64,000 nucleotides of DNA from Cristatella mucedo (taxonomy: Eukaryota; Bryozoa; Phylactolaemata; Cristatellidae): contig WPIO01000026.1 in assembly GCA_009760855.2 (NCBI GenBank), positions 3,416,501 to 3,480,500 of the forward strand. The letters are read 5' to 3'. This document shows, piece after piece, positions 10,773 through 35,777 of the stretch. Both the position numbers and the translations under genes were made by a program. Numbering within the stretch: position 1 is the stretch's first letter; each line of letters opens with the position of its first letter. The notes under the pieces were generated by a model. That model was given only the letters and a program-made list of their open reading frames with translations, did no database searches and was not told the origin of the DNA.

Positions 10773-10881
10773 ATGCCTCTCGGCGGCGCTGCCAAATGTC
10801 CGAAATGCCTCAAGGCCGTATACTACGCCGACGAGACGACGGTCAAGGGCAAGAAGTGGCACAAGAGCTGCCTCACTTGCG
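10773..10881 (+). CDS. Multi-LIM gene exon 1: start and first finger of LIM1
   Basis: Encodes residues 1-36, MPLGGAA then KCPKCLKAVYYADETTVKG and KKWHKSCLTC. The zinc ligands are C9, C12, H30, C33 and C36. The ATG has G at -3 and an in-frame stop upstream. The donor GTGCGT follows one base into codon 37. Confidence 0.85.

Positions 10882-35777: not shown

Follow-up and report, generated by a model that had tools for sequence, protein, structure and literature searches.

The window analyzed here, by which we mean the whole stretch of 64,000 bases (C188:3416501-3480500; the genome has 572 Mb, divided among 688 contigs), contains a gene that by its sequence is a member of the CRP/muscle-LIM-protein (MLP) class and that is predicted to encode six complete LIM domains, followed by an orphan second finger. 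The structure of the gene, the zinc ligands, the relation to a two-LIM CRP of the same genome and the selection on the modules and the linker motif can be seen directly. The gene appears to have come from a copy of a two-LIM CRP gene, and its product would form a chain that cross-links actin and alpha-actinin. We give this reading as a whole a probability of about 0.75. The protein is a longer version of a known muscle scaffold protein and no new kind of protein. The gene illustrates how repetition of a frame-neutral unit of two exons can lengthen a two-module muscle adaptor, and the two-LIM CRP retained in this genome offers a comparison.

Gene Structure and Splicing

An earlier note on this DNA had proposed that 14 exons join in phase into a protein of 759 residues. 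Rebuilding the model from the sequence gave the same length (Table 1): the exons lie on the + strand between 10773 and 35777, join in frame, and are separated by introns that are GT-AG in all cases (13/13). The stop codon at 35775-35777 ends the 759-codon frame. Intron phases alternate between 1 and 2. Each of the complete LIM domains is interrupted by a phase-1 intron directly after its fifth ligand, whereas linker introns are of phase 2.

Table 1. Exons of the six-LIM gene in window coordinates, with the parts of the protein that they encode.
Exon	Position	Strand	Content
1	10773..10881	+	start codon, LIM1 first finger
2	15804..15948	+	LIM1 second finger; linker without GPKGYG motif
3	16306..16424	+	LIM2 first finger
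4	17993..18164	+	LIM2 second finger and Gly-rich motif
5	18536..18690	+	linker motif (18543-18590) and LIM3 first finger
6	23247..23412	+	LIM3 second finger and Gly-rich motif
7	24129..24280	+	linker motif (24133-24180) and LIM4 first finger
8	24599..24776	+	LIM4 second finger and Gly-rich motif
9	25201..25352	+	linker motif (25205-25252) and LIM5 first finger
10	29180..29357	+	LIM5 second finger and Gly-rich motif
11	29638..29822	+	linker motif variant (29642-29689) and LIM6 first finger
12	33653..33830	+	LIM6 second finger and Gly-rich motif
13	33948..34153	+	acidic linker; first Cys of orphan second finger
14	35593..35777	+	remainder of orphan second finger, C-terminus, stop

That the exons belong to one gene, as the note had also held, agrees with the sequence. 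The Met residues of the protein are at positions 1, 48, 120, 427, 566, and 588, and all but Met1 lie within LIM domains, so that no linker ATG offers a clean shorter start at an internal module. A division into two separate genes was rejected: the linkers have no in-frame Met, and exon 3 has its ATG in another frame. The locus may have a further first exon that is unseen here.

It is possible, although we consider it the less probable course, that the locus mainly makes shorter products, either a one-LIM protein whose end lies in intron 2 or chains from which modules have been skipped, with the six-LIM chain being minor or hypothetical. Reading past the donor of exon 2 leads to an in-frame TGA at 15950 and hence to a one-LIM protein; the modules LIM2 to LIM6 each run from phase 2 to phase 2, so that skipping preserves the frame; and the neighboring gene, with one first-finger and two second-finger exons, makes short CRPs likely at the locus. 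Exon 2 also has a possible second in-phase donor, AG/GTCGAG, after 15924. Against a mainly short output stands the strong protein selection on LIM2-6 and on the linker motif. Moreover, no in-frame Met lies outside the LIM domains after residue 1, so the modules would have to be reached from exon 1 or from an unseen first exon.

LIM Domains and Linkers

The full eight-ligand LIM pattern matches the protein six times (residues 9-60, 97-148, 206-257, 312-363, 422-473, and 543-594), and all eight zinc ligands are present in each of the six domains. Pfam LIM aligns with the 759-residue protein in six stretches (227.2 bits, E=1.6e-68). Taken with a C-x2-C-x17-C-x2-C finger closer to the C-terminus, these matches bear out, far beyond chance, the proposal of six complete LIM domains and an orphan second finger. 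A Gly-rich motif follows LIM2 to LIM6 and is absent after LIM1 (5/6).

With a separate profile for each of the two fingers, the gene shows six first fingers, six second fingers and the orphan, and no others. As the profiles were built from the fingers of two local CRP genes, the matches to these are self-matches by construction and the absence of others is the result. The search covered 144 kb, starting 30 kb ahead of the gene and stopping 60 kb beyond the window, and, the neighboring gene excepted, found no extra CRP-type fingers, by which further LIM units hidden in introns or flanks were rejected. A genome-wide Pfam LIM scan gave at least 77 matches, with none on C188 or C332 (the contig of the two-LIM CRP) among the matches listed, most simply because each LIM of these genes is split across two exons.

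In pairwise comparisons of LIM2-6, pS is 0.66-0.82 and pN is 0.08-0.26, the exception being the pair LIM4-LIM5 (0.46 and 0.12, respectively). With synonymous sites mostly near saturation and few protein changes, the modules are old and under protein selection. LIM1 of the window is less constrained, with pN of 0.37-0.43 against the other modules. A recent duplication of the modules was considered and rejected on the near saturation of synonymous sites, LIM4-LIM5 apart. The DNA of the second-finger exons of these two domains (exons 8 and 10) is 87% identical over 153 nt (24594-24746 vs. 29175-29327), possibly from gene conversion or a later exon duplication.

The inter-LIM linkers are 36, 57, 54, 58, and 69 residues long, and four of the five carry the motif [FY]AEAQ[AV]APL[LQ]R[RK]QS[ST][VI]. 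Between the copies of the motif, pS is 0.57-0.80 and pN is 0.04-0.19 over about 15 synonymous sites, a constraint about that of the LIM domains. Each of the five linkers has one R[RK]x[ST] site, an outcome reached in none of 20,000 within-linker shuffles; it should be noted that the four motifs are copies and not independent, so the shuffle test overstates their independence. The sequence R-R-x-S suits PKA-like kinases. No R[RK]x[ST] site is present in the linker of the two-LIM CRP at C332.

The Orphan Second Finger

Exons 13 and 14 encode C698-x2-C701-x17-C719-x2-C722, a spacing shared with all six complete domains. By place and phase, exon 13 corresponds to the first-finger exon of a seventh unit, but it lacks the four zinc ligands of that finger. 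We read the orphan finger as the probable remnant of a decayed seventh LIM unit of which the second finger alone is left.

It is improbable, in our judgment, that exons 13-14 are foreign or mispredicted and that the real protein ends at LIM6. In support of such an early end, the two exons searched alone against Pfam gave no match at E up to 1, and reading through the donor of exon 12 leads to an immediate stop. The profile score of the finger is also weak and partial (11 bits over profile positions 13-29 of 38; segment E=0.052, stretch E=0.079). The finger is nonetheless the best second-finger profile match outside the CRP fingers over the 144 kb, the best shuffled segment having E=1.5, and its cysteine spacing is exact. 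The splice sites of the two exons are GT-AG and their phases match: exon 12 ends in phase 2 and exon 14 starts in phase 1, so that the two cannot be joined directly in frame, and exon 13 is the phase 2-to-1 exon that is needed. Exon phase is in favor of the orphan finger. Composition is coding-like in the predicted frame as well. Exon 13 has a higher coding score than any of the 1,561 overlapping open intronic windows, and 2.8% of these windows attain the score of exon 14; the measure is rough, as it was trained on exons 1-12 of the same gene and the windows overlap.

Relatives and Probable Origin

The assignment of the LIM domains to the CRP type, also made in the earlier note, is upheld both by solved structures and by the LIM tree. 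In a PDB search, CRP1 and CRP2 rank first. When the genome was searched with the protein sequence of LIM2-LIM3, 42 matches had E up to 1: 14 on C188, which are those of the six-LIM gene and of the neighboring gene starting at 63806, 4 at C332:7503169-7506806, and 24 elsewhere. Among these 24, the three with E below 1e-3 were read by eye: two resemble CRIP-type exons and one a paxillin-type LIM, and the open frames of these three contain no GPKGYG-like motif. Exons that resemble CRIP-type LIM proteins by eye lie at C676:5043675-5043791 and C255:3883190-3883306. Scans of viral contigs and of prokaryote genomes, one each and in collections not meant for animals, returned no relatives.

The C332 matches belong to an ordinary two-LIM CRP gene of four exons (C332:7503166-7506815), with intron positions and phases as in the six-LIM gene. 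A tree of CRP LIMs only (14 rows, 66 columns; 5 of 11 inner branches open) pairs LIM1 of the window with LIM1 of this gene (97/98), and groups LIM3-5 (97/92) and LIM3-6 (87/92). The two LIM1 domains are 67% identical, that of the window having a long branch. The best match of the window LIM2 is LIM2 of C332 (65% identity), with its position in the tree left open. LIM3-6 fall outside the LIM1 pair and are 48-60% identical to LIM2 and 46-58% identical to LIM1 of C332. It is a reasonable inference, and no result of the tree, that LIM3-6 were derived from LIM2.

The simplest history, and the likely one, begins with duplication of a two-LIM CRP gene, one copy of which would have become the six-LIM gene. 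LIM1 and LIM2 would retain the ancestral order. The unit repeated would be a first-finger exon plus a second-finger exon, with phase 2 at both outer ends and probably of the LIM2 type, and its repetition would have produced LIM3-6 and the decayed seventh unit.

A neighboring CRP-type gene lies on the same strand, with exons at 63806-63923, at 66669-66811, and from 68671 (window coordinates). It has one first-finger exon and two second-finger exons, both phase-compatible, the first of which ends in a stop. Of 24 residues, the second fingers of the two exons share 15. Judging from this arrangement, the gene likely uses alternative last exons to make two one-LIM proteins.

Proposed Function

CRP1 bundles F-actin and makes alpha-actinin stable on the bundles (PMC1318456), and Mlp84B is described as being at the Z-disc (PMC7928361) and cooperating with D-titin (PMC7238268). 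MLP is described as structural when a polymer and able to enter the nucleus as a monomer (PMC9456170). By kinship with such proteins, an actin-bundle or Z-disc scaffold would be the most likely role. In the six-LIM protein, muscle-LIM-protein modules would be joined covalently into a longer chain, which by avidity would bind and cross-link actin and alpha-actinin at Z-discs, dense bodies, or similar bundles. The presence of six modules would raise both avidity and span, and the basophilic kinase sites (R-R/K-x-S/T) in the linkers of 36-69 residues may tune binding. Strict MEF2 consensus sites occur at chance (1 vs. 0.94 expected), and muscle expression thus draws no support from MEF2 sites.

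A stronger version would make the protein a pre-assembled covalent muscle LIM chain, encoded in one gene in place of the polymer described for vertebrate MLP, the length of which could be set by skipping of phase-2 modules and the joints of which could be switched by a basophilic kinase at [FY]AEAQ-AP-L-R-[RK]-Q-S, with the half finger serving as a specialized end cap and not as debris. We give this elaboration little credence.

Least likely of all is that the lengthening of a CRP has produced a tension-sensing LIM array of the zyxin, paxillin, or testin kind, a reading that the long linkers and the apparently missing aromatics disfavor. The protein does have more than three LIM domains in tandem, three LIMs having been reported as necessary in the first studies, with one testin LIM as a later exception (PMC12157626, preprint). 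Features reported for tension-sensing arrays (zyxin, paxillin, testin, FHL) are a tandem layout, linkers of fixed length, and a conserved aromatic residue per LIM (PMC12157626, PMC12863670, PMC11310055), and the accounts of testin and Prickle2 have the linkers as short, whereas the linkers here are 36-69 residues. Counting from the zinc ligands and not from an alignment to a known tension sensor, LIM2-6 have no aromatic in the 16 positions that follow ligand 6; LIM2 and LIM6 have one directly ahead of ligand 7, and LIM1 has a single Phe between ligands 6 and 7.

Comparison with Known LIM Proteins

CRPs are described as having typically two LIMs and in some cases one, and two CRP-related proteins of Drosophila as having five each, with Gly-rich motifs (Koch et al., 2012, PMC3305314). 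The earlier note had given CRPs one or two LIM domains and Mlp84B five; the first part agrees with the published description, and the second needs amending, as the five-LIM fly case is two proteins and not one (PMC3305314). What these share with the window protein, as far as the description goes, is CRP-class LIMs with Gly-rich motifs in tandem in one protein. Set against that description, the window protein differs in having six complete LIMs and the orphan finger and in lacking a Gly-rich motif after LIM1. Its repeated linker motif may be a further difference. The two fly proteins are presumably Mlp84B and Mlp60A.

With vertebrate CRP1, CRP2, and CRP3 (MLP), the window protein shares the LIM type, the GPKGYG-like motif, and long linkers, but those proteins have two LIMs and not six. 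The count of six exceeds the usual one or two; as the count varies within the class, it marks a variant and does not exclude membership. It may, as the note suggested, be lineage-specific. The CRP linker is given as about 50 residues, with a Gly-rich motif after each LIM (PMC3305314), and the linkers of 36-69 residues are in line with that length, the first being shorter. A tick MLP is described as having 106 residues, in which Gly-rich regions come after a LIM domain (PMC7238268).

The C332 protein shares with the six-LIM protein its N-terminus, the intron positions and phases of the gene, and counterparts of LIM1 and LIM2. It differs in lacking the R-R-x-S linker motif, and no further modules were found in it. 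In FHL proteins, too, a LIM array carries a half domain that consists of a lone second finger, an arrangement that the window protein has in common with FHL. Unlike in FHL, the half domain here is C-terminal, the LIMs are of the CRP type, and the linkers are long.

In the part of the CRP/MLP literature surveyed, which took in few subscription papers, we found no CRP with six LIMs, which is no proof of absence. Against the published range covered by the survey, six and a half LIMs are a modest step. If transcripts confirm the model, the CRP class reaches at least six LIMs, compared with the five reported in flies, and the conserved phosphorylatable linkers become a testable idea for regulation of the chain.

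Other Observations

Of the 29 ORFs of at least 150 residues in the window, ten from outside the exons gave no Pfam match at E 0.01. Two related repeat copies are found at 25955-26149 (intron 9) and 32694-32886 (intron 11), with a translation that we take to resemble a LINE reverse transcriptase. Long CT/TC simple-repeat arrays occur at 11149-11291 (intron 1), 27057-27322 (intron 9), 47860-48121, and 53958-54523.

The mitochondrial contig C688 has 21,008 bases, of which 20,000 were read. An open frame occurs in it three times, as two direct copies and an inverted one, and nad3 has a second, partial copy. Genes named by eye follow the order nad1-nad6-cob-nad4L-nad4-nad5 on one strand, a block also carried by Katharina. 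The order equals a block in several inferred ancestral orders, and Katharina, a mollusc, has been taken as the lophotrochozoan ground pattern (PMC5856267). The DNA may thus come from a lophotrochozoan. A search for Chitin_bind_4 gave 0 matches, which speaks weakly against an arthropod, as no positive control gave a signal. In the C688 genes, ATA stands at Met positions and AGR at Ser positions, consistent with the invertebrate mitochondrial code.
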